Virus record (IMG/VR): IMGVR_UViG_3300048918_000336
Coordinates: 1 to 62,871 of that record
Origin: a virus
Reading direction: 5' to 3' (one strand)
Length of the DNA: 62,871 nt
This document shows positions 1 through 62,871 of this stretch, one piece after another (position 1 is the first letter of the stretch; each line of letters begins with the position of its first letter). The notes under the pieces were generated by a model. That model was not told the origin of the DNA. It did no database searches and saw only the letters and a program-made list of their open reading frames with translations. The translations under genes were made by a program, and so were the position numbers.

Positions 1-127
1 GGGATTGGCGCTCGAGCGCCTCGGCCACTGAGCAGGATGGGGCATCGTCTTCTGGCGCGCTCTCGTCGGCCAGCTCCGGGAAATAATCGAGCACGGTCGG
101 GAGCACTTCGCGCTCCTTGCCGGCGGC
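1..127. repeat. Terminal direct repeat, copy 1 (assembly overlap)
   Basis: The first 127 bases are identical to the last 127 bases of the window. A length of exactly 127 is a common assembler k-mer size, and the ThiF reading frame passes through the join without a break. I therefore read the repeat as the overlap left when a circular or circularly permuted molecule is written out as a line, not as a biological terminal repeat. Confidence 0.93.
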
Positions 128-616
128 ATTCTTCGAGCAGCCGATGATGAATTGCCCGTCGCTCGCGCGGTTGCCGAGATCCATCCAGTAGAACGGGGGA
201 GAATCCGCGTCGGCGATCGCCGCCCCCAGCTCGCGCCTGGCTGAGGCGGTGTCAACGCAGCTGATGAGGAGGTCGGCGCCCCTGACCCCGGTCGCGGCCG
301 GCGCTCGGCCGTGCACGGCTTGCCAAGCGAGACCATGCGCGAGATTGATCCGCTCGGTGAGCGTCCGCGCTTTGGAGTTGCCCAGGTCGCATCGGTAAAA
401 TGGCTGGCGCCCCAGATTTGCCTCGGTCACAATATCGTCGTCGACGACAGTCACATGCAGCGATCGAGATGAGATAGCGCGCAGGGCCGTGTCGAGCGAG
501 GCAAGACCCATGAGCATCTGCGCGCCGTTGCCGCCACATCCGACCAGCAGGATGTTGATCGTGCGCTGGTGGAGCGCGGCAGGTAGATAATGGCGATCGG
601 GGAGGTCAGGCTGCAT
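1..616 (-). CDS. PRTRC ThiF protein, E1-like adenylating enzyme (3' part lies across the contig join)
   Basis: Enzymes of the ThiF/MoeB/E1 superfamily use ATP to adenylate the C-terminal glycine of a ubiquitin-like or sulfur-carrier protein and often then form a thioester. From the ATG at 616 the nucleotide loop GCGGNGA is at residues 26-32, NLGRQ at 67-71, Lys82 in SKART, and VDTASARR at 121-128. Cys195 in PSCSVAEAL is the best thioester candidate. The frame leaves the window at base 1 after 205 codons and resumes at 62744, ending at 62578, for 260 residues in all, a normal length for the family. AGGAG sits six bases before the ATG, and the start overlaps the preceding JAB gene by 11 bases, so the two are coupled. 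The motifs are seen; assignment to the PRTRC ThiF family rests on them plus gene order. Confidence 0.93.
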   Translation of the reverse strand, partial: MQPDLPDRHYLPAALHQRTINILLVGCGGNGAQMLMGLASLDTALRAISSRSLHVTVVDDDIVTEANLGRQPFYRCDLGNSKARTLTERINLAHGLAWQAVHGRAPAATGVRGADLLISCVDTASARRELGAAIADADSPPFYWMDLGNRASDGQFIIGCSKNAAGKEREVLPTVLDYFPELADESAPEDDAPSCSVAEALERQS

Positions 617-1265
617 CGTAATCTCCTGAGAAGGGAAGACGTGGCAACGGCAGGAACATGCCGCCGGCGCAAAGGCGCGACGCGATCACAGGTCCGTCGG
701 GATGGTCGATGCGACCGATGACGATCGAAATCTTTGTCGCATGTGCGTCGTCGGCGTCATCGGTGGCGCTGAAGAATGCGCGGCTATGGCCATGACTGTG
801 GATATCGCAGACCAGATGCCAATCGGGCTGCAGGGCCGGGGTCCGATAGACGAGCCGTGACGGCGTGGCATTGTCGATCGCGGGGAAATTGACCCCGAAT
901 TCCCGCGTGACCTCGTTCCAGATCACGAACGCCGCCGCTTCGTTGGGCAACGCCGCGTAGAAGTGCTCCAGGATATCTTCGATAGGCGCGCGCGGGATCA
1001 ATCCGCAGCGCAAATCTGCCTTCGGTTTGCCCACGCTGCCATATGGAAGGTATCCCGAAATCGGTGACGCGATCGGGGCGTCGAGTTCGAGCCATGGCCT
1101 CCGCAGGATCAACATGACCCCATCGTTCCCGATGGCGAGGCCGTGGCCTGCCCGCGCCGTCCGAAGCGCATCGATCGCCGGCGACCGCCCGCTCGGCGGC
1201 ACAGGATAGCAGGGCACCGCAGCGAGCACCGCGGCGGCTGTCGGATCATCGGCGAGTTGGGTCAT
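606..1265 (-). CDS. PRTRC system protein A, JAB/JAMM metalloprotease
   Basis: 219 residues. JAB-domain proteins are zinc metalloproteases that remove or mature ubiquitin-like proteins. The full JAMM signature HxHx7SxxD is visible as HSHGHSRAFFSATD: His156, His158, Ser166 and Asp169. A Glu in the preceding strand region (EAAAFVIWNE, about 109-118) could be the general base. The N-terminal ~100 residues match the extra region that PRTRC A carries before its JAB domain. The gene overlaps PRTRC B by ATGA at its start and ThiF at its end. This order, with the JAB protease next to the E1, is the usual one in PRTRC cassettes. Activity is inferred from the intact motif. Confidence 0.92.
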   Translation of the reverse strand: MTQLADDPTAAAVLAAVPCYPVPPSGRSPAIDALRTARAGHGLAIGNDGVMLILRRPWLELDAPIASPISGYLPYGSVGKPKADLRCGLIPRAPIEDILEHFYAALPNEAAAFVIWNEVTREFGVNFPAIDNATPSRLVYRTPALQPDWHLVCDIHSHGHSRAFFSATDDADDAHATKISIVIGRIDHPDGPVIASRLCAGGMFLPLPRLPFSGDYDAA

Positions 1266-2059
1266 CGCTGGACGCTCCCCGCGATCAGCTTCCCGAGCGT
1301 GATCGGCTCAATCGCCCCCCGTCGTTGTTCGCGCGGATCGAAAGCCTTGAGACGCTTGACCGGAAAGCGCTGCGCCTGGCGGGCGGCGAGATCTTCCCAG
1401 AGCCTGACCAGCCCGCCTTTGCCTGTAACCGTCAGTTCCTGGCCGGGGTTGGGGTGAGTCGACCATGAGTCAAACACCGCGCGCTCGAACTCCGGGATTG
1501 AAGCGATCGTCAGGGCTTTCGGTCTCGCTACGTTGCCCCAGCAGAGTTTGCCGGTGATGAAGACGTTGAGGATCGGCGAATGAAGCAGCTCGGTATCAGC
1601 GGTGGGCCGCTGGCTCGCCGGCAGGGCATAGACACCAAGACCCGATCGCGTGGCGACGAACAGGTGCGCGGGATACGGGATCGGTACGATCGTTCGCGTC
1701 GATAGCACGTTCACGCCTTTTGGGGGGTTCGTCAGGGCGAAGAAAGCCGGTCGGACCTGCTCGGGAACCCACCACGCGAGCACCTCGGCGTGTGAGACCA
1801 GCACGTTTTCGGGCAGGATCTCGGGTACAACGGTCTGGTCGAGGGCCTCAGCCCATTGGCGAAGGTGCGCGCGCGTGAGCGGGATGCCGGCAGCGATCGT
1901 CGGCCGCTCGTCTTCGAGCTCGACGGCGTGGATGCTGGCGAAGGCAGGTGCGCCGAGCATCTTGCGGCCATGAGTTGGTTCGCTCCGGTAGAGCAGGATG
2001 GCGTTGGTCAGCGCCAAGCCGCCGGCGGTGGCTTCAAATTGTGTGGAATGACTTGGCAT
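1262..2059 (-). CDS. PRTRC system protein B, E2-like (UBC-fold) protein
   Basis: 265 residues from the ATG at 2059, chosen because GAGGA lies five bases upstream. A GTG at 2071 that overlaps the end of PRTRC F is the alternative. The stretch SPILNVFITGKLCWGN resembles the E2 pattern HPN...G.IC that leads to the catalytic cysteine; here that is Cys173 (counting from the ATG). An earlier proline-rich turn (NPPKG, near 111-115) and an aromatic helix after the Cys (FERAVFDSWS) also fit a UBC fold. As I recall, comparative genomics has described PRTRC B as E2-like; I cannot check that here. If correct, it would accept protein C from ThiF as a thioester. Its last bases overlap the JAB gene. Confidence 0.88.
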   Translation of the reverse strand: MPSHSTQFEATAGGLALTNAILLYRSEPTHGRKMLGAPAFASIHAVELEDERPTIAAGIPLTRAHLRQWAEALDQTVVPEILPENVLVSHAEVLAWWVPEQVRPAFFALTNPPKGVNVLSTRTIVPIPYPAHLFVATRSGLGVYALPASQRPTADTELLHSPILNVFITGKLCWGNVARPKALTIASIPEFERAVFDSWSTHPNPGQELTVTGKGGLVRLWEDLAARQAQRFPVKRLKAFDPREQRRGAIEPITLGKLIAGSVQR

Positions 2060-2067
2060 AGGTGTCC

Positions 2068-3195
2068 TCACATGCTGGCTGGGTTGAGGTTGATCAGGTC
2101 TTGGGCGGCGAGCAGGAGCTCCGCGCCGAGCTTCAATGAAGCGAACCAGTCATCGATCTGGCTGGCGTCAGGCAGCGGGCAGAGGCCAGCGACATCCATG
2201 AAGCCCTGCTGCATCCCGTGCTCGCCGACATAGTCGAGTTCCCGCGCGAAGTGGTCGGCGGGGACTAGTGTCATGGCCGGTAGGTGCGAGGCGTCTTCGA
2301 AGTCGGGGATGTATTCAACGATCTGGTCGAACGCGAAGCGCCAGGCGTTCGCCTCGGTCGCAATGCCGGCGAGGGCTTTGTGCAGGTCACGAAGCTTACG
2401 AATGTTCTGTCGCAGTGGGGCCGGCAACTGCTTCATCGGAGCAGCATTCTTGGCGAGCATCCATTCGGGACGCCGGGCATTCATCGCCGACGGCAACATT
2501 TCCTCGTCAATCTCGGCTGGGTCCGTGCCGTGCCATTCGATCATGGCTTTGGTGGCACCGAGGTCGTCGGTTTCGCCGTCCCAATAGTAGCCCGACATCT
2601 CCTCGAAGAGGTCTTCGTACCCAAAAATGGGAAGCGCCATCGACAGCGTATCGACAAGCGCCTTGTAAGCTGCCGCCCGCCAGCTGACCGGTGCGACCCT
2701 CCTGAACGCTGTGTTCCTCAGGACATTGTCGTCGGCTTCGATCCAACCGAGATCGAGTTGTCCGACGCTATCGCAGATCACGGCAAGCGCCGGCGGCAGG
2801 TTCTCGTCGCCGTGGAGAACGACCACCCGCAGATCCGCGAGCTCGAAGGGATTGAGGATCTCGAGCACTGCGGCACCGAACACCTTTTCGATCCGCGCTC
2901 GGGCCTGGGGCCGGGTGTAGCGCCGCGCGGTCGTTTCGCGGGCCGCGACCCAGCGCCCGATCAGCTTGTGGTGCTTCGCAAGCGGCGCGTCGAACAGCGC
3001 CGGGACGTCGATCGAAAGCTTGACCGATCGCCCAGCGAGATCAGCCAAGGGGCGCGAGGCGCAATCCGATTGGCGGTTGAAGCGCCTCGCTTTCCCCGCG
3101 GCCGCCGCTTGTTGGGGCGAGGAGGATTCGCCCATGGAGGACCTGAAGTTCCTCGCTGCAGACTGGCTGGGCAAAGCTGGTACTGTCGCCATCAT
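2068..3195 (-). CDS. PRTRC system protein F
   Basis: 375 residues starting at a double ATG. No catalytic motif is recognisable. The N-terminal ~45 residues are rich in Ser, Ala and Gln and look disordered; the rest looks like a folded, mainly helical protein with acidic patches (EEMSGYYWDGETDDLG, about 200-215). It is assigned to PRTRC F by position between C and B and by its length, which fits that family. The function is unknown. The stop codon overlaps the alternative GTG start of B. A 71-base gap separates it from C, and no strong ribosome site is visible before it. Confidence 0.82.
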   Translation of the reverse strand: MMATVPALPSQSAARNFRSSMGESSSPQQAAAAGKARRFNRQSDCASRPLADLAGRSVKLSIDVPALFDAPLAKHHKLIGRWVAARETTARRYTRPQARARIEKVFGAAVLEILNPFELADLRVVVLHGDENLPPALAVICDSVGQLDLGWIEADDNVLRNTAFRRVAPVSWRAAAYKALVDTLSMALPIFGYEDLFEEMSGYYWDGETDDLGATKAMIEWHGTDPAEIDEEMLPSAMNARRPEWMLAKNAAPMKQLPAPLRQNIRKLRDLHKALAGIATEANAWRFAFDQIVEYIPDFEDASHLPAMTLVPADHFARELDYVGEHGMQQGFMDVAGLCPLPDASQIDDWFASLKLGAELLLAAQDLINLNPASM

Positions 3196-3266
3196 CGGGG
3201 TCGATCCATTCTAGGAGCGTTTTCCGGGGTGCGGCCGGGATGGCCGCGCTGCTGCGCCGGGCCATC

Positions 3267-3473
3267 TCAGCCCTTCGTGCCAACAGCCCGACGGTATTCG
3301 GTCACGTGGACGCCGTTCGACACGCCGGCGTCGGCCATCTCGGCGTTGAGGATCGCCGGATAGAGCGTGGCATGGTAGGCGCGCAGGCCTTGCGTATCGC
3401 CGGCAAGGTGTGGTGGCACGGGAAGGTCGATACCGTCGTAGCGATAGACTTGGGTCAGCTGTTCGATTTTCAT
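3267..3473 (-). CDS. PRTRC system protein C, ubiquitin-like candidate ending in Gly
   Basis: 68 residues with GAGG five bases before the ATG. Pattern: an N-terminal strand (EQLTQVYRYDG), a central helix rich in Leu, Ala and Tyr (about 30-46), and a C-terminal strand that ends VGTKG. This size and arrangement suit a small beta-grasp, ubiquitin-like fold, and the last residue, Gly68, is free at the C-terminus, as needed for adenylation by an E1. Family membership (PRTRC C) is supported by the sequence pattern and by the gene neighbours. Its role as the conjugated protein is inferred from the nearby E1-like, E2-like and JAB genes. Confidence 0.9.
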   Translation of the reverse strand: MKIEQLTQVYRYDGIDLPVPPHLAGDTQGLRAYHATLYPAILNAEMADAGVSNGVHVTEYRRAVGTKG

Positions 3474-3519
3474 GGTCGCCTCGTGGCTGGAAGGGTGTCG
3501 TCAGAGATTGCCTGGCTCA

Positions 3520-3918
3520 TCACCAGAGACTGGCGGGCTCGCCTGGAGCGGGCGCCGGGGGTATCGGGGCTGCGGCTGGGGCGGTCGCAGGCGACTTGGG
3601 CGCGGTGGCCGCAGGCTTCGCCTTGGTCTTCGCTGCCTCGGCGGCTTCACGCTGCTCGGCGATCTGGTCGGCAAGCGCCTTTCGCGCCGATATGAGCTGG
3701 CCAAGAGCGCCGTCGGTCCCCTTTGCGAGCTCCGCATCGATCTCAGCTGCAGACGCGGTGATCGATATCGGCCGCGCCTCGCCGGACTCGAGGCTGTGCT
3801 TGCCGCCTTCAGCCTTGCGGGGGATGACGGTCAGGGTGACCGTGTCGTCGGGCCCGGCGACGAGGTTGAAGCCGAGCGAGTAGCGAGACAACAGCGGAAG
3901 CAGGCTGGTGATCAGCAT
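3520..3918 (-). CDS. PRTRC system protein E
   Basis: 132 residues, starting six bases after ParB ends, with AAGGA ten bases before the ATG. A short folded N-terminal part (FNLVAGPDDTVTLTVIPRK, about 17-35) is followed by a predicted helix (about 58-95) and an Ala/Pro/Lys-rich tail (about 96-130) that looks disordered. This layout and the position between ParB and C are typical of PRTRC E. The function is unknown. Confidence 0.86.
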   Translation of the reverse strand: MLITSLLPLLSRYSLGFNLVAGPDDTVTLTVIPRKAEGGKHSLESGEARPISITASAAEIDAELAKGTDGALGQLISARKALADQIAEQREAAEAAKTKAKPAATAPKSPATAPAAAPIPPAPAPGEPASLW

Positions 3919-3924
3919 GGCGGT

Positions 3925-5244
3925 CTATTCCTTTTCAACGGCGGTGGTGGCGGAGGCTTCGGGTTCCGGCGCTGCGCTGCTCGGCGGCGGCCCGTATTTG
4001 CCGTCGAGCGTGATCGCGCTTGGTAGCCGGCCGTCCCAGCTGAACCCGGTTGCGTTGAGCATGCCGGCGACGATGTCGGCCGGTTTGGACTCGAGCAGCC
4101 TCGCGAACTTCCTCGCGCCCATGTGCTCGACAAGGCCGCACTCCTGCGCGATGAACTTGAGCTCGTCCTTGTTGAACCGGCCGAGGAAGGCCTGATCGAC
4201 CTTCCAGGTGTCGCGCAGCGTTGCTTCGAAAGCTCTTGCGATCTCGGGATCGCCCTCGACCGCGCGAATCAGCGCCGTGCGCCACGCGGCCTCGCGGAGC
4301 TCAGTGACCCGGCTGGCGATCGAAGCGGCGGTGACCTTCACAGCCTTCGCGGCCGTGCTGTTGGGCGCTGGCTTGGTGGCAGCTTTCGGCGCTGGGGCAG
4401 GTGCTGGCGCTTCCGGCTTGCGGGAGGCCGGCGCCTCCGCCGCGGCGGGCGGCGCTGCGCTCTCCACAGGTTGCGCCTGAGCCGCCGCCTCGGTCTTCAG
4501 CTGGAAGCAACCGGGATTGGTACAGGCCCCATCATCGACATGGGTTTCGAACAGCGCGCGCTGCGTTCCGGAATTGAACGGGCAGGTCGTGCATTCGGTC
4601 TTGTCGAAGGTCGCGGCGGCAAGGCTCTGTGTCACGCGCATAAGCAGCTCGCGCGTTTTAACGACGTCGAGGCCGGCGCTCAGGATCGTGTCGAGCGCCT
4701 TGTCCTGTTTGTCGCCTGGAACCGCGGCGAGCAGCTCGGCGTGCCCGACCTTGATGCGGCGTTCATCCAGCGCGAGCTTCGCCGCGGCAGAGAGGTTGGC
4801 GAGCGCGAGGCGTCGATCGAGCTTGGCCGGGGACCAGCCGAGCCGGCGTGCCGCCTCGGCGCGCTCATTCTGGCAGGCGGCCAGGACGCGGACCGCGGCG
4901 TCGGCCTGCTCGGTTTCCGAAGCGTCGTCGCGCAGATCGTTCTCGTCGATCGCGGCCTCGAGCGCTTCCTGATCGGTCATCTCGCGGACGATGACCGGTA
5001 CGACACCCTCAGCGCCAAACGCTTCGAGCGCGGCGCGGTACCGGCGCTCGCCGGCGACGATCACATAGGCGCCGTCGGCATCGGCCGCGGGGCGGACCAG
5101 CATCGGCTGAAGCATCCCGCGCAGGCGGAACGAGGCAACGAGTTCGTCATGCTTCGTCCGGTCGAAGTACCGGCGCGGGTTTTCCCCCGGCCGGATCTTG
5201 GGCAGCGGCAACCTGGTCGCGCTGAAGGGATCTGTGGCGTTCAA
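3925..5244 (-). CDS. parB: PRTRC ParB-family protein
   Basis: 439 residues from a TTG start at 5244, preceded by AAGGAGA six bases upstream. The frame stays open for 29 more codons, but without a ribosome site. The ParB/Srx-like N-terminal domain contains GERRYRA at 65-71, the nucleotide-binding box that in other ParB proteins binds CTP. A helix-turn-helix follows at about 128-146 (RAEAARRLGWSPAKLDRRL). Cys218, Cys221, Cys241 and Cys246 form a probable zinc site. The region at about 250-310 is Ala/Pro-rich and the C-terminal domain is unassigned. It heads the cassette and should bind DNA; the GTCTAACC repeats just upstream are candidate sites. There is no ParA nearby, so a simple partition role is doubtful. 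Confidence 0.93.
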   Translation of the reverse strand: MNATDPFSATRLPLPKIRPGENPRRYFDRTKHDELVASFRLRGMLQPMLVRPAADADGAYVIVAGERRYRAALEAFGAEGVVPVIVREMTDQEALEAAIDENDLRDDASETEQADAAVRVLAACQNERAEAARRLGWSPAKLDRRLALANLSAAAKLALDERRIKVGHAELLAAVPGDKQDKALDTILSAGLDVVKTRELLMRVTQSLAAATFDKTECTTCPFNSGTQRALFETHVDDGACTNPGCFQLKTEAAAQAQPVESAAPPAAAEAPASRKPEAPAPAPAPKAATKPAPNSTAAKAVKVTAASIASRVTELREAAWRTALIRAVEGDPEIARAFEATLRDTWKVDQAFLGRFNKDELKFIAQECGLVEHMGARKFARLLESKPADIVAGMLNATGFSWDGRLPSAITLDGKYGPPPSSAAPEPEASATTAVEKE

Positions 5245-5316
5245 CGGTGGTCTCCTTTTGGGGATTGGAAGGTGGCGGGAGTCTGCGACTGCGCGGTCAT
5301 GCGAACGCACCAAAAA

Positions 5317-5504
5317 GGTTAGACATCGCATTCGGGACGCCGCAGATTCCCGTGGCCGCTTTCGGGCCGGTTAGACTTTTCAACCCACTGGAATCAGGTG
5401 CTTGTGGATGCCTCGGTCGGGCCTCCACCTCCAGAAAATTATGCATCGTTTCCAAACCTTTCTTGGAGATTGGTGTCTACCCCATCGGAGAGGTTAGACT
5501 TTTC
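5317..5504 (-). repeat. Three GTCTAACC direct repeats between integrase and ParB
   Basis: On the minus strand GTCTAACC occurs at 5317-5324, 5369-5376 and 5492-5499. The last two extend to an identical 13-mer, GAAAAGTCTAACC (5369-5381 and 5492-5504). The third copy lies inside the 3' end of the integrase gene. Arm-type binding sites for the integrase (attP) or binding sites for the ParB protein both fit the location; the sequence alone does not decide. The 5245-5438 gap shows no other clear feature apart from the ParB ribosome site. Confidence 0.55.
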
Positions 5505-6575
5505 CCACCGCGCCAGAGCGACGATCGCGTCGTCTGCCAGGCCGACTTGATTGGCCGCCTGGGTGTAAATCGCGACCTCTGCATCGCCACTATGCCCAGA
5601 AACCGACTTGAGCGTCTGGTTGCCGAGGTGAAGGGTCGCCATGCGTCGCATGATCGCCTTGCGCAGCCCGTGGGCGGTGCATTCCGGGAGCCCAGCCTCG
5701 TCGCACCGGTCGCGAAACCAGTTGCCGAATCCGGCATTCGAGAACGGCTTTCCGTACGAAGTCACGAGAAAGCATAGATGGCCATCGGCCGGCATCGCGA
5801 CGATCGCCTCGAGCAATTTCGGCGCGACGGCGATCCAGAGATCCTTGCCGCTCTTGCCCTGGACGACATTGATCCGCCCTGCTCTGATGTGCTGGCGCCC
5901 CATCCGGATCGCGTCACCGCGCCGTTGGCCGGTCCACAGCAGCAGCTCCATCGCGAGTCGGGGCTTGGTGCCGAGCGCGTGGCGGGCCCGGAACTGTGCG
6001 ATATCATCCTCGGTCCAGCTATAATAACCGGTCGACTTCTGCCCGGCCGCCACCTTCACCTTGTCGGATTGCGTCGCCGGGTTGGTATCGCGCATGCCCT
6101 TCTTAATCGCGAAGTCGAACAGCCGGACCAATTCCTTGCGCAGTTTCCGGGCTGCCTCCACGCCGCCCTCGATCCGCTTTCCGACCTTCCGCTTGACCCG
6201 CTTCTTGGCAATGATCGCGTCGATGTGGTCGAACTGGAAAGCGTCGACGGGGAGATCGCCGTGCTCGGTTCGGAACTTGTCCACGATCGCCCGCACCTTC
6301 GCCTGCGTCGTCACCGTCGGGCCGAGTCGCGTCGGGACGGCCAGATATTGCTCCACGAGCGCCGCGATCGTCCCAGGCTTGGCGCGCGTCACCACATGGT
6401 CGACGGGGCGCTCAGCAGGGTTCATGCAGAGCCGGTACTCGGTTCGGAATGCCTCGGTGCCGAGCGGCGCGGCGAAATAGTGGGGATCGAACCCCTTGCG
6501 CCTGAAGCGGAGACGCTCCTTGCCATGCCGGTCGACAAAGCTGGTGACGTATTTGGGGAGATATCTAGCCCTCAT
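5439..6575 (-). CDS. int: Tyrosine integrase
   Basis: 378 residues, usual for phage integrases. It catalyses site-specific recombination between attP and the host attB through a covalent 3'-phosphotyrosine. The catalytic residues are visible: Arg218 in TGQRRGD, His302 and Arg305 in AHGLRK, His328 in SGHSG, and Tyr337 in AIYTQA. An N-terminal arm-binding region (1-65) and a core-binding region (about 66-160) precede the catalytic domain. The start overlaps a 61-residue gene by 11 bases, so it belongs to the leftward early operon. It carries one of the GTCTAACC repeats in its last codons. Confidence 0.97.
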   Translation of the reverse strand: MRARYLPKYVTSFVDRHGKERLRFRRKGFDPHYFAAPLGTEAFRTEYRLCMNPAERPVDHVVTRAKPGTIAALVEQYLAVPTRLGPTVTTQAKVRAIVDKFRTEHGDLPVDAFQFDHIDAIIAKKRVKRKVGKRIEGGVEAARKLRKELVRLFDFAIKKGMRDTNPATQSDKVKVAAGQKSTGYYSWTEDDIAQFRARHALGTKPRLAMELLLWTGQRRGDAIRMGRQHIRAGRINVVQGKSGKDLWIAVAPKLLEAIVAMPADGHLCFLVTSYGKPFSNAGFGNWFRDRCDEAGLPECTAHGLRKAIMRRMATLHLGNQTLKSVSGHSGDAEVAIYTQAANQVGLADDAIVALARWEKSNLSDGVDTNLQERFGNDA

Positions 6576-10010: not shown

Positions 10011-10294
10011 GCTGAAAGCTCCTTGGCAGCCCTGAGCATCAGGCTCGCCGCATCGAGAAAGGTCTTGCGCGTCTGACCCTGCCGGGGCTCGGTCATCTTC
10101 GCGGCAATGTCGGTGTGCAGGACGGCCGTCGCGCGCAGGCCGGTGGCGATCACGTCGCGCTCCAGCTGGTTAGGGTGCCTGAAATTCAGCGCGAAGACGA
10201 TAAGGTCCGCGGCCTCGGGGGATGCTGCTTGCGCGAACTCAGCCCCGTCCTTCAGGACCTGTTTGCCGCATGCGGTGTAGCCGGGCGCGGTCAT
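10007..10294 (-). CDS. Small hypothetical protein
   Basis: 95 residues, mainly helical, with no motif I recognise. The start overlaps the HerA-like gene by ATGA and the end overlaps the next gene, so it is probably made from the same message. Confidence 0.6.
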   Translation of the reverse strand: MTAPGYTACGKQVLKDGAEFAQAASPEAADLIVFALNFRHPNQLERDVIATGLRATAVLHTDIAAKMTEPRQGQTRKTFLDAASLMLRAAKELSA

Positions 10295-11931
10295 GGGCGC
10301 TCTCCCGGTAGAGGCTCAGCGAGCCGGAATATTCCGCTGTGCTCGACGAGCAGACCGTTCCGCCGCAGCTGGGCCAGCCCGTTGTTGAAATTGCCGCCAC
10401 GCGGTGCAGTGCCGATCGCCTCGCCAAGCTCGTCTTTGGTCAGCAGACCCCGCGCCAGAAAGGCGACGATCATCTTCGGCGCCGGGTTCGTTAGTGCTCC
10501 TTTCCAGAGGTTGATCGCGGCATCGCGGCTCAACCCTTCCGGGTCAGGCTTCGCAGACCGGATCATCTGCCCGTCAACGTCTTCCAGAATCCGCCCGCTC
10601 TCGCGCAGCCATTTCCGGGCAGCGTTGAAATTGCCGCCGCTGGCCTTGCGCCCCGTCATCGTCGCGGCTTGCGACCAGGTCAGGCGCGCCGGGTTCATGC
10701 GGTCGAGCAGCTCGGCGATCGCGAGTGCGGCGGGCGAGGCATTACCCCCGCCCGCCTTCTCCGTTGCGGTTCGTGCCGCCGGCGCCGGAGCGGTCGCCCT
10801 TGGGGTTGGCACAGCTGCCAGCGTCCCCTCTGTTTTGCCCGTCGTCTCCTCGGGGCCACCGCCGCCTTGGGCGGGGGTCTCGTCAAACATTTCCAGCGCG
10901 GGCCGGATGCGCCCCATGTCGGACGCGGCGGCACCGATCCGCGCAGCGATCTCGTGCAGCGCGCGGTTCTCGGTCACCAGCGCGTCAATCTGCCGCTGCC
11001 CGTAGGCACGCTCAATCGTCCATTCGTCGCGCTCGGCGCGCAGCGCGGCCAGTTCGGCGGCGAGTATAGGATTTGCATAATCCGAGCCGGATTTGCATAT
11101 TTCCGCCTCGGGATCGGATTTCGCGACCAGCCCCGCCAATATCTCCCGCAAAGCCTCAGGCGCCGGCGGCGTCGCAACCTTCGCCTGTCCTGGCCGAACC
11201 ATGGTCGTCTCGACATCGCCGACCCGAAACAGCGCAGGCTCCCGAGCCAGGGCCGGACCGAACGCCCAGAACTGGCGAGGCTCGGTGCCCATCAGCCGGC
11301 TATCGGATTTCCGCATGCCCAGCTGGTCCGCCATGATCCCGCGATCCAGCGTTTGCCCGACCCGACCCATCAGCCAGTTGTTGATATCGCCGCGGATATT
11401 GGCGTCGATCTTGGGCAGGCGCTGCGATGCCAGCACAGCGGTGAAGCCACGCTTCCGGCCGCGCTCGGTCAGCATCCGGATGGCGTCGGGGTCGAAGCGC
11501 TGCGCCTCGTCGATCACCACCAGGACGGGATGCCATAGCTCCTGCGGCGCCGAGATCATCGCTTCGAGGAAGTTCGCGACGAATTCCCCTGCCCCGCCAT
11601 GGCCGAGGTCGTTCAGCTGGCAGATAAGCGAGAAGCCGTGCGTCAGTGCCGCGACCGCGAGCGCACCGGCATTCGCTGGCTTTGCCTCGGTGTCTCCGCC
11701 CTGCCCGCCCGCGATCACATAGTCGAAGCGCTGGCGGAGGGTATAGGACTCGTCCTCGCCGTCGAGCACGATGTGCTGAATCTGGCCGTAGGTCTGCTCG
11801 AGCAAGCGGCGGATCAGGCCGGACTTGCCGCCGCCCGCATTGGCGACGATGCCCATGTGCGAGCCGATCAGCGCGTCGAGGTCGAGCGCCAGCGGTTCGT
11901 TGTGGAGCGTGGCGCCGAGGATGGCCGTCAC
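10291..11931 (-). CDS. HerA-like (DUF87) ATPase with tandem C-terminal modules
   Basis: 546 residues from a GTG at 11931 that overlaps the previous stop (GTGA). The Walker A loop ends in GGGKS at residues 33-37 and the Walker B segment VLVVIDEAQ spans 136-144, as in HerA/FtsK-type hexameric DNA translocases. A coiled-coil-like region follows (about 315-350), then a low-complexity Pro/Ala linker. The C-terminus carries two related modules, each with GGNFN followed by RKWLRESGRI or QLRRNGLLV; they look like two winged-helix-type repeats. It is coupled to a 52-residue gene and lies downstream of recT and the exonuclease, so a role in end processing or recombination is plausible. Confidence 0.85.
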   Translation of the reverse strand: MTAILGATLHNEPLALDLDALIGSHMGIVANAGGGKSGLIRRLLEQTYGQIQHIVLDGEDESYTLRQRFDYVIAGGQGGDTEAKPANAGALAVAALTHGFSLICQLNDLGHGGAGEFVANFLEAMISAPQELWHPVLVVIDEAQRFDPDAIRMLTERGRKRGFTAVLASQRLPKIDANIRGDINNWLMGRVGQTLDRGIMADQLGMRKSDSRLMGTEPRQFWAFGPALAREPALFRVGDVETTMVRPGQAKVATPPAPEALREILAGLVAKSDPEAEICKSGSDYANPILAAELAALRAERDEWTIERAYGQRQIDALVTENRALHEIAARIGAAASDMGRIRPALEMFDETPAQGGGGPEETTGKTEGTLAAVPTPRATAPAPAARTATEKAGGGNASPAALAIAELLDRMNPARLTWSQAATMTGRKASGGNFNAARKWLRESGRILEDVDGQMIRSAKPDPEGLSRDAAINLWKGALTNPAPKMIVAFLARGLLTKDELGEAIGTAPRGGNFNNGLAQLRRNGLLVEHSGIFRLAEPLPGERP

Positions 11932-12086
11932 GACCGCCCCTTCCGCCCGCGCATCGCCACGACGGTTTGCTCGGGCTCGCCGGGCACGACCGTGATGGCA
12001 CCGAGGCTGAGGACGCGGTCGCCCGGCGCCTTGCTGGTGCGCTCGACCTGCTGGGGCGGTCGGCAATAATCGCGGTAGGATCGCAT
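11928..12086 (-). CDS. 52-residue protein coupled to the HerA-like gene
   Basis: Starts at ATG 12086 with AAGGA seven bases upstream and stops in GTGA, which shares bases with the HerA-like start. It reads MRSYRDYCRPPQQVER..., is basic, and has the short strand pattern RVLSLGAITVVPGEPEQTVV. The ribosome site and the tight coupling support a real gene. The function is unknown; it may only secure translation of the ATPase. Confidence 0.7.
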   Translation of the reverse strand: MRSYRDYCRPPQQVERTSKAPGDRVLSLGAITVVPGEPEQTVVAMRGRKGRS

Positions 12087-19852: not shown

Positions 19853-20337
19853 CGCAGCGCACAAATTCCGCCCAAAGCTCGCCAGTTATATCGGACGAAC
19901 GTTTGCGGGACATTCTTCGCCGGCAGCTCGACCGATCGATCAACATCGACCGCGAGTTCACCCGCGAGAGACTGGCCGAACAGAGCGGCGTCAACGTCTA
20001 CACAATCGACTCAATCATGTCGCGCGACCCCGCCAAGCAGCGCCGGATCAAGCTCGAGGATGCAATGTCGCTGATGTGGGCGCTCGAGGACGAGGCGCAG
20101 CACCGCGCGGTCAACTGCTTCGCTGGCCTGCTCGGTTTCGTGGCGCGGCGGGCGGACGACCCTGGCGCGATTTCGCCGGCACAGATCGTTGCCGATGGGC
20201 TGGCGGATTTCTCGGTCATCGCGGCCGCTGCTGCTGATGGCCGGATCGATCACACCGAAACCGAGCCTTGTCGGATTGCCGCCGATCACCTGATCGCGAC
20301 GGTGTTGCCGCTCTCGAGCGCGGGCCGGGGAGCATGA
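19849..20337 (+). CDS. HTH regulator
   Basis: 162 residues. A helix-turn-helix lies at about 38-62 (FTRERLAEQSGVNVYTIDSIM), followed by RRIKLEDAMSLMWALE; the C-terminal half is helical and Ala-rich. In the position where lambdoid phages keep CII-type regulators, but sequence does not show homology to CII. DNA binding is likely. Confidence 0.7.
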   Translation: MTQRTNSAQSSPVISDERLRDILRRQLDRSINIDREFTRERLAEQSGVNVYTIDSIMSRDPAKQRRIKLEDAMSLMWALEDEAQHRAVNCFAGLLGFVARRADDPGAISPAQIVADGLADFSVIAAAAADGRIDHTETEPCRIAADHLIATVLPLSSAGRGA

Positions 20338-21329
20338 GCCGCGCAGCCACATCACGCCTCAAGGCAAACCCGCCGCTCGGCCGCATGCCCACCCTGCAAT
20401 TCGTGTTGCCGGGCGAGCTCGCGGTCGATTCGCTCTACCAGCGCTCGATCGAGGGTGGCGACAGCCAGGCGCTGATCCGGCGGATTGCGCAGCACTGGAA
20501 TTGGGACCTGTGCCAGCCCCTCGTCGTCAGCCGCCGCAACACCGGCGAACTCTTCGTCATAGATGGACAGCACAGGCTCGAGGCTGCCAAGCTGCGCGGC
20601 GACATCCCGCAGCTCCCGTGTGTCATCGTCGCATACAGCAACACTGCGGATGAAGCGGCGAGCTTCGTTCACCTCAATCAACAGCGCCGGCCGCTGACCA
20701 AGCTCGATATCTTCAAGGCCGCCGTGGCGAGCGAGGATCCGGAGGCCTGCGCGATCATGGAGGCGATCGCTTATGCAGGGCTCTCCATCGCGTCACATTC
20801 GAATTTCACCGCATGGAAACCCGGGCAGATATCCAACGTCGGCGGCATCGAGGCCAGCTGGCGGCGCCATGGACCGAAGGCGACGGGCTATGCTCTTCGC
20901 GCGCTCCAGCTTGGGTTCGATGGGCAAGTGCTGCGCTATGCCGGCACCATCTTTCCCGGAATTGCCGGTGTGTGCGCCGACGAAACCCGCAAGGGCGAGT
21001 TCGATCCGCAGCGCTTCGAGCGGTTCGTCACGATGCTGGCGCTGCGCGAGCAGACACAGTGGCGCGGCGATATTATGCGAGCCAAGGCGGACAATCCGCT
21101 GTTCAAATTCCAGGCGGCGAGCCTCAAGGTCGTGCTCGACGCATGGTCCCGCGCGAATGGCGACCAGCCTCGCCAGGCAGTGCCGGTTTCTGCTGCCCCG
21201 CCTGCGCCAGTCAAGCCCCTGCAGGAATTCCCCGGTTTTCGCTGGTGCGATCAGTGCGACATGAGGGTCACCCATAGCCAGGCAGCCGGCTGCCGCAGCC
21301 GATTTTGCTCGCTGAGGCTGAAGGCATGA
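20334..21329 (+). CDS. ParB/DGQHR-type domain protein
   Basis: 331 residues from ATG 20334. The motif FVIDGQHRLEAAKLRG (about 80-95) is the core of ParB-like/DGQHR domains, which bind nucleotides or DNA. LNQQRRPLTKLDIFKAA follows, as in this phage family (DUF6551 type). The C-terminus has a zinc finger (CDQCDMRV...CRSRFC, about 304-327). It is separate from the PRTRC ParB and of a different subfamily. Its role is unknown. Confidence 0.78.
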   Translation: MSRAATSRLKANPPLGRMPTLQFVLPGELAVDSLYQRSIEGGDSQALIRRIAQHWNWDLCQPLVVSRRNTGELFVIDGQHRLEAAKLRGDIPQLPCVIVAYSNTADEAASFVHLNQQRRPLTKLDIFKAAVASEDPEACAIMEAIAYAGLSIASHSNFTAWKPGQISNVGGIEASWRRHGPKATGYALRALQLGFDGQVLRYAGTIFPGIAGVCADETRKGEFDPQRFERFVTMLALREQTQWRGDIMRAKADNPLFKFQAASLKVVLDAWSRANGDQPRQAVPVSAAPPAPVKPLQEFPGFRWCDQCDMRVTHSQAAGCRSRFCSLRLKA

Positions 21330-24652: not shown

Positions 24653-25311
24653 TCGCATACGCCTCCCGAACAGGCACGCGCCGCAACCTCGACGCTCTCC
24701 GCGCCGCTGGCTGGCGCCTGATGGTGTCCGCGCGGGGCGTGCTCCGCACCGAGGGGTTCCGATATGCGCTCGACAACGGCGCATGGACGGCATTCCGAGA
24801 ATTCAACGAGGGAAAGCGCGCGACTCCGCAGCTTTCCCTCCGTGCCTTCCTTCATGCCGTTGACCAGCTTGGCGCGGGCGCTGACTTCATAGTCGTCCCC
24901 GATATCGTCATGGGTGGCGCGAGTTCGCTTGCCCTTTCTCGGGCCTGGTTGCGGCGTCTTCGTCGGCGGCGGGATATCCGAGGCGTGACGCTTATGCTCG
25001 CTGTGCAGAACGGCATGGAGCCGCGCGACATCGAACGCTGGCTCGGGCCTGGTTGCGGCGTCTTCGTCGGCGGCGACACCGACTGGAAGATCAGAACGAT
25101 GGGAATGTGGTCGCGAGCTGCCCACGCCCGCGGCGCTCTCTGCCATATCGGAAGGGTCAACACAGCGCGTCGCGCTCGCCTTTGCGACATCGCCGGCGTC
25201 GATAGCTTCGACGGTTCCGGGCCAAGCCGCTTTGCCGATTGCCTGCGCCGGGTCGATGCCGCCTTCGATCAGCGAGATCTCGAAGGCTATATCGAGAGGA
25301 TGGTCGCATGA
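24649..25311 (+). CDS. TGT/DpdA-like TIM-barrel protein
   Basis: 220 residues. The sequence contains LDNGAWTAF (41-49), FIVVPDIVMGG (80-90), LAVQNGM (117-123), FVGGDTDWK (139-147), GRVNT (168-172) and DSFDGSGPSRF (185-195). This series fits the tRNA-guanine transglycosylase superfamily and phage relatives of DpdA, which exchange guanine for a 7-deazaguanine in DNA. No gene for making preQ0 or its relatives is in the window, so a base would have to come from the host. An exact 34-bp repeat occurs twice in this gene in two reading frames. Substrate and activity are inferred. Confidence 0.65.
   Translation: MIAYASRTGTRRNLDALRAAGWRLMVSARGVLRTEGFRYALDNGAWTAFREFNEGKRATPQLSLRAFLHAVDQLGAGADFIVVPDIVMGGASSLALSRAWLRRLRRRRDIRGVTLMLAVQNGMEPRDIERWLGPGCGVFVGGDTDWKIRTMGMWSRAAHARGALCHIGRVNTARRARLCDIAGVDSFDGSGPSRFADCLRRVDAAFDQRDLEGYIERMVA
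24938..25075 (+). repeat. Exact 34-bp direct repeat, read in two frames
   Basis: Bases 24938-24971 and 25042-25075 are identical (34 bp, offset 104 bases, not a multiple of three). The first copy encodes the Arg-rich stretch SRAWLRRLRRRR (97-108), the second encodes LGPGCGVFVGGD (132-143), which includes a conserved motif. Confidence 0.92.
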
Positions 25312-25654: not shown

Positions 25655-27090
25655 TGGCCCGCCGCGAAGACGCCGCACCCGAGCGGCTTTACCCGACATC
25701 GATCGTCCCAACCGAGGGCGAATACATGATGCTCGCCATGTTGCTGAACGAGAACCGGCGCGTCGATATCGTTGCCGATCTGCTTCGCGGCGAGGACTTC
25801 GCCGAACCGCTGTTCGGGCGCATCTATGACCGCATCGTGCAGCTGGTCTCGGCAGGCCAGCAGGCCAACCCGATCACCCTGGATCCGCTGTTCGCCGATG
25901 ACTTCTCCTATCAGGAGTTCAACGGCCGGGCGTTCCTCGCCGGCATGACTGGCGGCACCGCGACCGCGACGCTTCTGATGAGGCCGCGAGACCAGGCCAA
26001 CATGATCGCCGAATGTGCGGCGCGGCGGCGATATGTCGATGCCACGACCGAGCTCGCGCGCGCCGCGGCAGATCGCACGATCTCGATTCCGAGCCTGATC
26101 GACCAGGCCGATAGCGCGGTCGCCGGCACCATCGAGCGGCGAGAGGCGCCGCGCCAGGTCAGCCTCTCCGGTAGCATCGCGCAGGCGATAACCCGGATCG
26201 AGGAAATCCAGGCCAATGGCGGCAAGGTCGGCGCCCCTTGTGGTATCGCTGAAATCGATGACCTGATCGGTGGGTTCGAGGCGCCTGACCTCATCCTGAT
26301 CGGCGGCAGGCCCGGCATGGGCAAGACTGCGCTTGCCGCAGCGCTCGCTCTGGGGCTCGCCAGAAACGGTCACGGGGTCAGGTTCGATAGCCTTGAGATG
26401 CGCAGTGTCCAGCTTGGCATGCGCTTTGTCAGCGATCTCTGCTGCCGCGACGTCGGCCGCTGGATACCATTCAGTGCCATCACCAAGGGGACGGTCACCC
26501 GCGAGCAGCTGGAAACGATGCGTGCTGCTGAACAAGCTGTGCGATCTTGGCCCCTTCTCGTCGAGGACGTTTCCAAGGTCACAATCCCGTCGCTCCATCG
26601 CAACTTGCGCCGAACGCAGCGGACGATGGCCGCGCAGGGCCAGGAATTGAAGGTCGGCTTCGTCGACTATCTGCAGCTGATGCAATCCAGCAATCCAAAG
26701 GCCTCGACATACGATACGGTGTCGGAAATCAGTAAGGGCCTGAAGGAGATCGCGAAGGATCTCGGCATCGCCATGGTCGCGCTGGCGCAGCTCAGCCGCA
26801 AGGTCGAGGAGAGGGACGACAAGCGGCCCAAGCTCGCGGACCTGCGCGAAAGCGGCCAGCTCGAGCAAGATGCCGACGTTGTTCTGTTCCCGTACAGGGA
26901 GGAGTATTACCTCAAGGACGAGAAACCAAAACCCGGCAACGAGGAGGCGCATGAGGCACGCAAAAGTGCTGCCGCGGGCCGGATGAGTCTGATCTGCGCC
27001 AAACGCAGGAGCGGCCCCACCGGTACCGCCGACGTCCAGTTCCTCGCGGCTTATCAGGCGGTCCGCAGCAAAGACTGGGGGCGGTTGTGA
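25648..27090 (+). CDS. dnaB: Replicative DNA helicase, DnaB family
   Basis: 480 residues from ATG 25648 (ATG 25654, in TGATG with the previous stop, is close behind). The hexameric 5'-3' helicase opens the replication fork. The N-terminal domain (about 20-120) is typical (TEGEYMMLAMLLNE...LFGRIYDRIVQL). The RecA-type core has Walker A GGRPGMGKT (near 217-225), Walker B VGFVDYLQLM (near 335), and ALAQLSRKVEERDDKRPKL and EQDADVVLF. The full length indicates an active enzyme. It is followed directly by the DUF1376 gene, the likely loader or initiator. Confidence 0.95.
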   Translation: MLMARREDAAPERLYPTSIVPTEGEYMMLAMLLNENRRVDIVADLLRGEDFAEPLFGRIYDRIVQLVSAGQQANPITLDPLFADDFSYQEFNGRAFLAGMTGGTATATLLMRPRDQANMIAECAARRRYVDATTELARAAADRTISIPSLIDQADSAVAGTIERREAPRQVSLSGSIAQAITRIEEIQANGGKVGAPCGIAEIDDLIGGFEAPDLILIGGRPGMGKTALAAALALGLARNGHGVRFDSLEMRSVQLGMRFVSDLCCRDVGRWIPFSAITKGTVTREQLETMRAAEQAVRSWPLLVEDVSKVTIPSLHRNLRRTQRTMAAQGQELKVGFVDYLQLMQSSNPKASTYDTVSEISKGLKEIAKDLGIAMVALAQLSRKVEERDDKRPKLADLRESGQLEQDADVVLFPYREEYYLKDEKPKPGNEEAHEARKSAAAGRMSLICAKRRSGPTGTADVQFLAAYQAVRSKDWGRL

Positions 27091-27845: not shown

Positions 27846-27961
27846 AGCGAGAAACCTTCCACTGCCTCTGCGGCTTCGCATCCGACAAGCCGGGCATGTG
27901 TCCGAACGAGCCATGCCGCGGCGACCACCTGCACTCGAAGCTGAAGGGCTGGCGGAAATGA
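27842..27961 (+). CDS. 39-residue zinc-finger-like protein
   Basis: Overlaps both neighbours by four bases. Cys8, Cys10, Cys21 and Cys26 with His at 30 and 32 (CLCGF...CPNEPCRGDHLH) suggest a metal knuckle. Function unknown. Confidence 0.62.
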   Translation: MKRETFHCLCGFASDKPGMCPNEPCRGDHLHSKLKGWRK

Positions 27962-60146: not shown

Positions 60147-60676
60147 CCCTCTCCCGACGCCAAGGCCCGTATGGCGGTGGCGATAGTAGCGCCAGGGGAC
60201 GGAAGTCGTTCCCCGAGGTTGGCGATTTGTGGCAGGCTCAGGCTCTCAGCCACCTTCGCAGCAGCTTCTACCCCCTCCCGAAAGCTCTTTGAACCATTCC
60301 CCGTTTCTAAACAGTTGGTCACCTGTAGAATGGCGTCGGCTTTGGCGCGCGCTTCTTCCATCGTTTTCAGATAGGTTGCGTTGGCATAGCGCAGGCCGGC
60401 TTCATCGCCGTCGCCAACCGCTTCGCAATGCTCGATCATCGACTGCCACGACTTGAAAACGACCGGATCGATGATCCTCGCCACCTTCTCCCGCACCTCT
60501 CCCGGATCGGCGGGGGTTGGGCGGCTGTTCCATGCGGCATCCGCTGAGGCTTGATCTGCGCCATATGTCTGCGCACGATGCGTGGGGTCGGCGCACAGGA
60601 CACCGCCAGCCCCTAATCGACCGTTTCGGATTGGCTGGTCACCACACCATGGACACGCCTTCAGCTCCTCGGTCAT
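60143..60676 (-). CDS. Lar-like restriction alleviation protein
   Basis: 177 residues. The N-terminal zinc ribbon CPWCG (8-12), then GGVLCADPTH and ADAAWNSRP, is the Lar family pattern. Lar proteins of phages and prophages reduce attack by type I restriction enzymes, in part by raising host methylation. The C-terminal ~125 residues are an added helical region not found in short Lar proteins. It overlaps the methyltransferase gene just upstream, which fits a joint anti-restriction role. Confidence 0.78.
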   Translation of the reverse strand: MTEELKACPWCGDQPIRNGRLGAGGVLCADPTHRAQTYGADQASADAAWNSRPTPADPGEVREKVARIIDPVVFKSWQSMIEHCEAVGDGDEAGLRYANATYLKTMEEARAKADAILQVTNCLETGNGSKSFREGVEAAAKVAESLSLPQIANLGERLPSPGATIATAIRALASGEG

Positions 60677-61413
60677 TTGGGGGCTCCTTCTGGGTTGGAT
60701 AGGGCAAGGGTGCCCTCAGTCGATTCGGCAATGGTCGGATAGACGGGATAGTCGCCGGGGCGCTCCAAGCGGTGCCTGCAGGGTGCGATCCAGCGCTTCC
60801 GCGTGTCGGCCGGCGCAGCGTCCCGCTTCAGCCAGATGAAGGCGGAATAGCTGGTCGCTGTACTTGCTTTCTTGCCGACCACTTCGGCGAACGGATCGAC
60901 GGCGCCGGACCGGATGAGGCGCCCCTTGAGCATCACCACCCGCTCGCTGAACTGAAGCTCGAAGCTGGGCGGGTTCGGGAGGAACAATTCCTCCGCGCGA
61001 TCCTGCCCCTCGGAAAAGGCGCTCCGGGCGATCACCGCCACGCCCACGCGGCTGAGCCGGATCGCTCGCTCGATGAACTCCTGCGCCAGGCGGAACGGCG
61101 GGTTGAGGAAGGTCCAATCGGTCATGTCGAGATGTGCATCGGGCCCAAACAGATAATCGCGCACCGGGAAGCCCGCGCCATAGTCGAACACGTCACTGGC
61201 CATGACGTGCCCGAATGACTCGCGCAGCGGCGTCACCATGAAACCGCGGTTGGCGCAGGGCTCGCGGCAATCCATCATCGCGAGATCGAAGCCGAGGCTT
61301 TTCAGGAATTCGCAGATCGCCCGCGTCGCCCAGGGCGGCGTCGGGAAATCGTCGAGTGAATCGTGGGGCTCGATGCGCTGCTGCATGACGGCGGATGAGC
61401 GGTTCTGGCTCAT
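60673..61413 (-). CDS. N6-adenine DNA methyltransferase-like protein
   Basis: 246 residues. PTPPWAT (24-30), the motif I-like DCREPCANRGFMV (48-60), acidic SDVFDYG (73-79) and the catalytic NPPF (104-107) identify a SAM-dependent amino-methyltransferase of the phage type. This is the second orphan methyltransferase of the genome and not closely similar to the first. Overlaps both neighbours by four bases. Confidence 0.85.
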   Translation of the reverse strand: MSQNRSSAVMQQRIEPHDSLDDFPTPPWATRAICEFLKSLGFDLAMMDCREPCANRGFMVTPLRESFGHVMASDVFDYGAGFPVRDYLFGPDAHLDMTDWTFLNPPFRLAQEFIERAIRLSRVGVAVIARSAFSEGQDRAEELFLPNPPSFELQFSERVVMLKGRLIRSGAVDPFAEVVGKKASTATSYSAFIWLKRDAAPADTRKRWIAPCRHRLERPGDYPVYPTIAESTEGTLALSNPEGAPK

Positions 61414-61954: not shown

Positions 61955-62581
61955 TCACCCGTCCCACCCGAAAAGCTTGTTGATCTCGTCCCTGTCGATG
62001 TCGCCCGCGGTTCGGGCCCGGGCGATTGCCACGAGCCGGAACCAGACCCGCCAGTAGCGGCGGTCGAGCTCGGGTGACCACGGCGCGTCTTTCCCATCCC
62101 GCTTCCGGTGCAGTCGCCAAAGGCGATTGTAGACCCGGCGCTCGGCCGAGCCGGGAGGAGCCGCGATCTTGAAATGCTCGCCGCAAAGGTGGGCGTCGTT
62201 GTGGTAATTGCCTGGGGATGTCGCGCCGGTGCGCTTGCAGCCCTCGACGGCGCACGGGTTACGAGAGCGGTGCTTATCGCAGCGCCAGTTCCCATCCGTA
62301 CCCCACATCGTGCCGGTGCGCTCGCCGCAGCATCTGCATCCAGGCCCCGATACGATCTCGAACTGCTCGGCCACGCTGGCCCATTCCGGGCTGTCGAGAT
62401 AGCGCCGCCAGTGCTCGGCGGAATAGATCAGCGTCGCGCCGAACGGGTTGCTAACCAGCTCGTAGACCGCGGCATAGGTGCCGGGCGTGTAGCTGACCCT
62501 CGCTCCGAAGTGGATCAGCTCGGAGCGGTAATACCGTCCGCTCTTGTGGCGGATCTGGAAGCCCTCGCCGTGGCTGATCAT
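61955..62581 (-). CDS. Zinc-binding hypothetical protein directly after ThiF
   Basis: 208 residues; ATG 62581 overlaps the ThiF stop (ATGA), so it is the next gene of the PRTRC operon. Cys/His groups CRCCGERTG (about 81-89), WRCDKHRSRNPCAVEGCKRTG (98-118) and HLCGEHF suggest two zinc sites. The N-terminal part is strand-rich (FGARVSYTPGTYAAVYEL); the C-terminus is Arg/Trp-rich and helical. Function unknown; a target-binding or E3-like role is only a possibility raised by position. Confidence 0.75.
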   Translation of the reverse strand: MISHGEGFQIRHKSGRYYRSELIHFGARVSYTPGTYAAVYELVSNPFGATLIYSAEHWRRYLDSPEWASVAEQFEIVSGPGCRCCGERTGTMWGTDGNWRCDKHRSRNPCAVEGCKRTGATSPGNYHNDAHLCGEHFKIAAPPGSAERRVYNRLWRLHRKRDGKDAPWSPELDRRYWRVWFRLVAIARARTAGDIDRDEINKLFGWDG

Positions 62582-62871
62582 TCAGTGGTCTCAGCCGCCG
62601 CTTTGGCACGAGGCGGAAGAGGTATCGGGACGCTCTGGCCGCTGGCGAGGTTGATGAAGGCGCCAGCGTGGCCGATCGAGCCCCGCCCGAGCAGGTCGAA
62701 CAGAAGCGCGAGCGCGTGGCTCGCCACCACCCGGTTGACGAACAGGGATTGGCGCTCGAGCGCCTCGGCCACTGAGCAGGATGGGGCATCGTCTTCTGGC
62801 GCGCTCTCGTCGGCCAGCTCCGGGAAATAATCGAGCACGGTCGGGAGCACTTCGCGCTCCTTGCCGGCGGC
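62578..62871 (-). CDS. PRTRC ThiF protein, C-terminal part (continues at the window start)
   Basis: This is the end of the E1-like gene. On the circle it follows base 1: residues 206-260 read LFVNRVVASHALALLFDLLG, then GHAGAFINLASGQSVPIPLPP, the expected C-terminal segment of PRTRC ThiF. Bases 62745-62871 duplicate 1-127. The apparent short ORF here is not a separate gene. Confidence 0.92.
   Translation of the reverse strand, partial: AAGKEREVLPTVLDYFPELADESAPEDDAPSCSVAEALERQSLFVNRVVASHALALLFDLLGRGSIGHAGAFINLASGQSVPIPLPPRAKAAAETTE
62745..62871. repeat. Terminal direct repeat, copy 2 (assembly overlap)
   Basis: Identical to bases 1-127; see copy 1. Removing one copy gives a 62,744-bp circle with an intact ThiF gene. 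Confidence 0.93.

Follow-up and report, generated by a model that had tools for sequence, protein, structure and literature searches.

A PRTRC cassette for predicted ubiquitin-like conjugation in temperate phages, with a possible role early in infection

What is a set of genes for a ubiquitin-like (Ubl) conjugation pathway doing on the genome of a temperate phage? The question is posed by the 62,871 nucleotides of IMG/VR virus record IMGVR_UViG_3300048918_000336 (the whole stretch is called the window here), in which seven open reading frames (ORFs), ParB-E-C-F-B-A-ThiF, lie on the minus strand at 5331-1 plus 62744-62578. We suggest that they form a functional cassette of the PRTRC kind (operon type 6d), that is, a Ubl conjugation module, and that its favoured role is in early establishment, through the tagging of host or defence proteins; we give this reading, taken whole, a probability of about 0.48. 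It is built on comparisons of gene set, linkage to phage genes, conserved residues, selection, the association of gene A with tailed forms of protein C, and the absence of ParA.

Membership of the PRTRC families was judged by the curated cut-offs of NCBIfam TIGR03734-TIGR03742, together with Pfam. A preliminary description, made from the sequence, had placed seven genes in this order and proposed such profile searches as a check; all seven are present, and ThiF (220 bits to TIGR03736 on a 205-aa part, cut-off 144.75), A (149.7 bits, cut-off 101.8), B (166.8 bits, cut-off 131.45), E and ParB score above the cut-offs of their families (Table 1), whereas C and F fall below. Protein C scores 38.6 bits against TIGR03738 (cut-off 45.95) and 60.2 against Pfam Prok_Ub (cut-off 25). 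Protein F reaches 15.1 bits against TIGR03742, far under the cut-off of 58.4, and its AlphaFold2 model (mean predicted confidence, pLDDT, 79.8) found no fold match in PDB or a viral library; F-like ORFs 46-64% identical to that of the window occupy the same place in relatives, and on several plasmids, too, the F gene next to PRTRC genes is annotated "hypothetical protein." The ParB ORF, which may begin at ATG 5331 or at an alternative TTG 5244, also matches ParB_N and HTH_ParB (Pfam) and keeps GERRYRA and ENDLR, motifs of CTP-binding ParB N-domains. ThiF, whose completion across the join of the circular map had been proposed at the outset, is a single 260-aa ORF that aligns full-length with other ThiF proteins.

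The claim that ThiF, B, C and A keep their key residues is borne out by comparison. Across phage and plasmid copies the alignments show GxGGxG 26-31, Arg70, Lys82 and Cys195 to be invariant in ThiF, and Glu109, His156, His158, Ser166 and Asp169 in protein A; in protein B, Cys177 is present in all 50 rows and His206 in at least 90% (a second alignment, of 42 sequences, was also made). The catalytic cysteine of B had earlier been numbered 173; counted from the GTG at 2071 it is Cys177. In close phage pairs, dN/dS (the ratio of nonsynonymous to synonymous divergence) is 0.07-0.17 for ThiF, dN is 0 at a dS of 0.14-0.29 for protein C, and F is the fastest gene of the cassette, with a dN/dS of up to about 0.5. 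Judged from these substitution patterns, the machinery looks functional and held by purifying selection, its activity being predicted. Two particular cases may be mentioned beside these pairs: gene F has a dN of 0.33 between phages L012 and L013, where the remaining genes of the cassette have 0.0-0.12, a contrast that looks like an exchange of F by itself, and in phage record L006 gene C appears frameshifted (11831-11932), through sequencing error or decay.

Protein C varies in its C-terminal end. In plasmid copies and most phage copies it ends exactly at ...GTKG, and in one phage-only clade at GTKGR. Phages like Burkholderia phage BgVeeders33, in contrast, have 61-100 residues after GTKG (in the C gene of BgVeeders33 itself the modifier is followed by 62 residues of tail), and C proteins with unrelated tails occur on four more phage contigs and on one plasmid, which suggests several separate origins of the tail. 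Lineages were defined as clusters at 70% ThiF identity, with L130 and L138 assigned by reading the sequences. Tailed C occurs in seven of nine lineages with gene A and in none of 33 without it (Fisher p 1.3e-6, in a test that takes the clusters to be independent, as they are only approximately, and counts one large two-state cluster in both columns). A single search found Prok-JAB over cut-off in none of 31 virus records lacking A and in all six records with tailed C. Since residues beyond GTKG are restricted to cassettes with A, we think that A probably matures pro-C, the GTKG end of tailed C being the probable processing site. Among the BgVeeders33-like phages mean identity is 90% over the Ub-like domain to GTKG, 29% over the first part of the tail and 72% over its last 38 residues; in L163, L165-L167, L169-L183 and L189 the first part varies in length and sequence while the last 38 residues are conserved, and the tail could be a swappable payload. 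The preliminary description had spoken of a working protein-modification system. Kept residues, purifying selection and a C tail that depends on the JAMM gene all argue for such a system, in which conjugation itself is inferred.

The cassette is not peculiar to the window. When IMG/VR was scanned with ParB, 16 loci came up, and in most of them all seven genes recur in unchanged order, with proteins typically 50-85% identical. Scanning again with an alignment of diverse ThiF proteins brought up 117 contigs; 80 of these were retained and were sorted by cassette-gene profiles into three classes: (i) full ParB-E-C-F-B-A-ThiF, which the window shares with about 18 other distinct records; (ii) E-C-F-B-A-ThiF without a cassette ParB, close to BgVeeders33; and (iii) E-C-B-ThiF, which lacks A and is close to genomic copies from Bacteroidetes. 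The search of phage genomes for the same gene order, which had been proposed at the outset, thus shows that the window is no one-off. A portal gene lies on the same record in 19 of 20 BgVeeders33-like records but in only 5 of 25 drawn mostly from the third class, so some of the latter may not be phages. BgVeeders33 (OK665841.1, L003) is the only carrier among 50,697 annotated phage records; it has E-C-F-B-A-ThiF at 25952-30438, unannotated as PRTRC, with one gene annotated as a dinucleotide-utilizing enzyme. We take it from its record, which describes a complete genome from a sewage sample with Burkholderia gladioli as the host, that this phage was isolated as virions.

Other carriers are prophages of cultured sphingomonads. 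Comparison of carrier records with genome contigs, on the strength of dozens of ORFs at 100% identity, places G005 in a 964-kb contig of Sphingobium sp. Leaf26, G010 in a 924-kb contig of Novosphingobium sp. NDB2Meth1 and G008 in a 230-kb contig of N. piscinae KCTC 42194. The integrase gene (int) adjoins a tRNA-Asn gene in two prophages and a third prophage locus bears a tRNA-Val gene; nothing convincing was found in a search for an attachment core near int. The virion genes of the carriers fall in varied families: portal phrog_146 and sheath phrog_205 in G010, head-tail adaptor phrog_332 and capsid phrog_212 in G005, portal phrog_2662 in G011, portal phrog_156 and capsid phrog_334 in G001, terminase phrog_15, portal phrog_21 and sheath phrog_165 in G004, and tail protein phrog_1101 in G008. 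Virion proteins of the window have few relatives in carrier records, whereas its cassette proteins have relatives throughout. On these protein comparisons the carriers are largely unrelated in virion genes, and we take the cassette to be an accessory block of temperate tailed phages.

The window itself has the genes of such a phage. Its ends are an exact 127-bp repeat (1-127 = 62745-62871), giving a circle of 62,744 bp, and the virus record reads as a circular temperate phage map. Matches to PHROGs and Pfam identify terminase (phrog_38), portal (phrog_2662/12), head protease, HK97-type major capsid, contractile-tail sheath (phrog_23), tape measure and baseplate genes, and an endolysin, a CI-like repressor, RecT, a DnaB helicase and an integrase are encoded on the cassette's own molecule. 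Integrase, repressor, packaging, capsid, tail and lysis genes thus occur together on one molecule, as in a temperate tailed phage, and the phage context first described for the cassette is all on the same contig. Every gene called from about 18,951 leftward through the circle join to about 58,868 is on the minus strand, which puts the cassette in a leftward block shared with recT and int.

Table 1. Cassette genes of the window and two genes of their context
Feature	Position	Strand	Basis and remarks
PRTRC ParB-family protein	3925..5331	(-)	468 aa from ATG 5331; TIGR03734 346 bits, cut-off 278.6
PRTRC protein E	3520..3918	(-)	132 aa; TIGR03741 77.7 bits, cut-off 37.95
PRTRC protein C, ubiquitin-like modifier	3267..3473	(-)	68 aa; ends RRAVGTKG; Prok_Ub match
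PRTRC protein F	2068..3195	(-)	fast-evolving, mainly helical; place in order and distant similarity
PRTRC protein B, predicted E2-like conjugating protein	1262..2071	(-)	GTG start 2071; TIGR03737 and Prok-E2_D over cut-off
PRTRC protein A, JAMM/JAB metalloprotease with JAB-N domain	606..1265	(-)	TIGR03735, DUF2016 and Prok-JAB over cut-off
PRTRC ThiF (E1-like), first part of 260-aa ORF	616..1	(-)	TIGR03736 match
PRTRC ThiF, end of ORF across circle join	62744..62578	(-)	ORF trace; profile positions 160-244 matched there
Tyrosine integrase	5439..6575	(-)	Phage_integrase match; directly upstream of ParB; marks phage temperate
Methyltransferase-like gene	60673..61413	(-)	phrog_799 DNA methyltransferase; downstream of ThiF, same transcriptional direction

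Could the contig nonetheless be a chimera that joins a phage to a plasmid, one of the two outcomes named beforehand as overturning the claim? PRTRC plasmids (Novosphingobium pLA4, a Sphingomonas panacis plasmid and Polaromonas pPNAP01) carry all seven genes, likewise ordered and oriented, and share the catalytic residues, and the nearest non-phage PRTRC relatives of the window lie on sphingomonad megaplasmids, with ThiF up to 81% identical. The plasmids differ from the window in that its cassette is on a temperate phage and comes without ParA or PRTRC protein D, and in that the phage copies stand outside a single sphingomonad plasmid clade. The identical gene order in the other virus records of the first class, the large single-strain contigs that match prophage records and the presence of the cassette in BgVeeders33 all tell against a chimera, as do the uniform G+C content along the window, the ThiF frame that stays open across the join and the position of the window copy outside the plasmid clade. 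The linkage of phage and cassette recurs in independent carriers and single-strain prophages and is thus not chimeric in kind; we regard the chance that this contig is a chimera as very slight indeed.

The relation between phage and plasmid copies was examined in an IQ-TREE tree of 70 cassettes and 1,052 columns. All 45 sphingomonad plasmid and genomic-island copies form one clade (SH-aLRT, a likelihood-ratio branch support, 100) with no phage rows inside it, and the phage rows, including the window copy, fall outside. The phage/plasmid label changes three times on the tree, against 18.9 times in shuffles, with 0 of 500 shuffles as low; one of the three changes is L077, an 11-kb contig of a metagenome-assembled genome that ends beside ThiF and is unassignable, and another is formed by distant outgroup plasmids. 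ThiF of the Burkholderia-type phages has no plasmid relative in PLSDB at 60% identity or more. Since the plasmid copies make up one clade free of phage rows, carriage by phages must be old, and as far as this phylogeny goes phage and plasmid copies are old neighbours with infrequent exchange. The number of label changes likewise disfavours repeated capture of the cassette from plasmids.

How might such a module act? Where C has a tail, the JAMM protease A would trim it to ...GTKG; ThiF would adenylate that end and then take C onto its Cys195; B would accept C on Cys177 and pass it to lysines of the targets, a step in which the fast-evolving F, and E, may act as guides; and A would later remove C from the targets. 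In variants that have it, ParB, a DNA-binding protein of the CTPase type with no phage ParA partner, may bring the machinery to phage DNA. The tagged targets would be host or defence proteins encountered by the phage DNA on entry, and their modification would help establishment. Conjugation itself, the order of the steps, the targets and the timing are what we infer. Expression early in infection is suggested by the place of the cassette in the leftward block with recT and int, and this position, together with DNA-modification genes among the neighbours of other copies, makes us lean to early establishment or counter-defence over superinfection exclusion.

Several observations weigh against this reading. 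The AlphaFold2 model of B (pLDDT 87.8) has no significant PDB match of any kind, the E2 fold included; the E2-like character first ascribed to B therefore holds at the level of the Prok-E2_D family match and is unconfirmed by structure search, and B is a predicted E2 on the basis of family profiles and of Iyer, Burroughs, and Aravind (2006; PMC1779556). The C protein of the L138 plasmid (Pelobacter) ends in Ala, so a terminal Gly is not absolute. A ParB-like gene next to ThiF is absent from 15 of 21 Burkholderia-type cassettes. The neighbours that inform our view of the role are few and come without control neighbourhoods: the DNA-modification families Mom (5) and DpdA (3) among 110 genes scanned around plasmid copies, and MT-A70 (3) among 107 around phage copies. 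Finally, some prophage cassettes lie by int near the prophage end (L109, L114), which fits expression in the lysogen too.

The structural result bears also on the idea that ThiF, B and C work without protein conjugation, in sulfur transfer or the modification of a small molecule, as ThiS and ThiF do. The adenylation domain of ThiF is of the appropriate family, and no relative of A, B or C with a solved structure was found, which for B and C, with the missing fold match of B, is in favour of such a role. An E2-family protein whose Cys is invariant and a JAMM protease whose presence follows that of C tails are, however, foreign to sulfur transfer of the thiamine type, and no biosynthetic partner genes were seen. 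We consider this explanation improbable.

The genes about ParB speak to a different proposal, in which reversible conjugation controls ParB and hence the partition or copy control of an extrachromosomal prophage. That ParB is the first cassette gene in sphingomonad phages and plasmids, and that the window was assembled as a circle, are both in its favour. Yet ParA was found in none of seven carrier phages tested, as against all six PRTRC plasmids, and PRTRC protein D was found neither in these phages nor in the window; D is not universal in any case, with sub-cut-off matches in only three of the six PRTRC plasmids and none in the other three. A simple search for a parS-like site upstream of parB gave no shared palindrome. 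With ParA missing, integrases in the carriers and integrated prophages that end at tRNA genes, a partition role for the phage cassette is disfavoured, and we rate it as slightly less probable than sulfur transfer. The preliminary description had also raised the possibility that the cassette regulates ParB; since BgVeeders33 and most Burkholderia-type cassettes do without a cassette ParB, an obligate ParB target is unlikely. Six of the 21 Burkholderia-type phages encode another ParB-like protein (HTH_ParB), of a different sort, immediately after ThiF (e.g., L170:9728-10570). The window has a second ParB-like gene, of the DUF6551 type, at 20334-21329, and a 78% identical copy lies upstream of the cassette in phage L016.

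The principal competitor to early establishment is prophage-borne defence, in which the lysogen would tag proteins of competing phages or plasmids in a form of superinfection exclusion like that of Bil. Known Ubl-conjugation systems of bacteria with a comparable set of parts are anti-phage in function, namely CBASS (PMC10097602) and Bil (as summarised in PMC12135933); copies by int near prophage ends sit in a common place for genes expressed in lysogens, and the fast-changing F could be a target receptor. On the other side, no PADLOC model was matched apart from a weak E1-domain similarity of ThiF, so that membership of a known PADLOC defence system was rejected; the neighbours of plasmid copies are mobile-element and DNA-modification genes and not defence systems; and the window cassette lies in the block of recT and int. 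Prophage defence therefore seems to us unlikely, though less so than the other alternatives considered here.

As to the surroundings of the cassette, other phages that carry it also have homologues of the window integrase (55-58% identical), and a copy of the methyltransferase-like gene, 86-87% identical, directly follows ThiF in L007 and L017. A HerA-like ATPase is encoded at 10291-11931, with relatives near the PRTRC cassettes of the plasmid-type loci L074, L102, L104, L111 and L134. At L054:13664-18925 and in about 16 other plasmid-type loci, a large SNF2-helicase protein with a sub-cut-off Eco57I methylase match lies downstream of the PRTRC genes and resembles a large protein of phage G001. 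Elsewhere the window has a tRNA-Met(CAT) gene at 30868-30944, between the early right genes and terminase; an exact 34-bp direct repeat at 24938-24971 and 25042-25075, 104 bp apart; and, on the minus strand within the rightward late region, a membrane acyltransferase-like gene (54757-55830) that, judged by sequence only, is a possible surface-modifying lysogeny gene.

Cassettes of this kind are known: a prediction that the PRTRC/6d operon is a Ubl conjugation system of bacteria dates from 2006 (PMC1779556). In the section on operon type 6d it is given a Ubl with a C-terminal Gly, a helical protein, an E2-like protein with a Cys and a downstream His, a JAB protein with an N-terminal domain and a separate E1, and the Ubl, the JAB protein, the stand-alone E1 and the Cys and His of the E2-like protein all have their counterparts in the window; that section describes bacterial genomes, reports no phages and does not describe tails on C after the Gly. 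No experimental function for the operon was found in searchable papers. The one system of the sort in the hankyphage paper is a Bil-like system of the host, and a paper on the leading regions of plasmids has no mention of ThiF, JAB or ubiquitin. In a literature search covering neither preprints nor most subscription journals, the phage-borne variant appears to be new. The BgVeeders33 cassette shares the order E-C-F-B-A-ThiF with the window (ThiF 44%, A 40%, C 36% and B 32% identical) and differs in having no cassette ParB and in the long C tail. The anti-phage systems Bil and type II CBASS would be alike in their E1, E2 and JAMM-type logic, if our prediction is right; they differ in protein families, and PADLOC gives no match for A, B and C. 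PRTRC, unlike them, is found on phages and plasmids and has ParB, E and F.

Tentatively, and with less assurance than we attach to the reading given at the outset, we propose that phages encode a complete reversible Ubl pathway as a long-kept trait that acts early on host or defence proteins, and that the Burkholderia-type modifier is made as a precursor with a variable tail of 61-100 residues cut off by the phage JAMM protease, the tail perhaps being an exchangeable second product. The recurrence of the cassette in temperate phages, in prophages of cultured sphingomonads and in BgVeeders33 provides small and tractable genetic systems, and the C precursor tail that tracks the JAMM gene is an immediate biochemical handle on the pathway. 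If the reading is true, bacterial viruses carry their own complete E1-E2-Ubl-protease pathway, mirroring the CBASS and Bil systems that act against phages.

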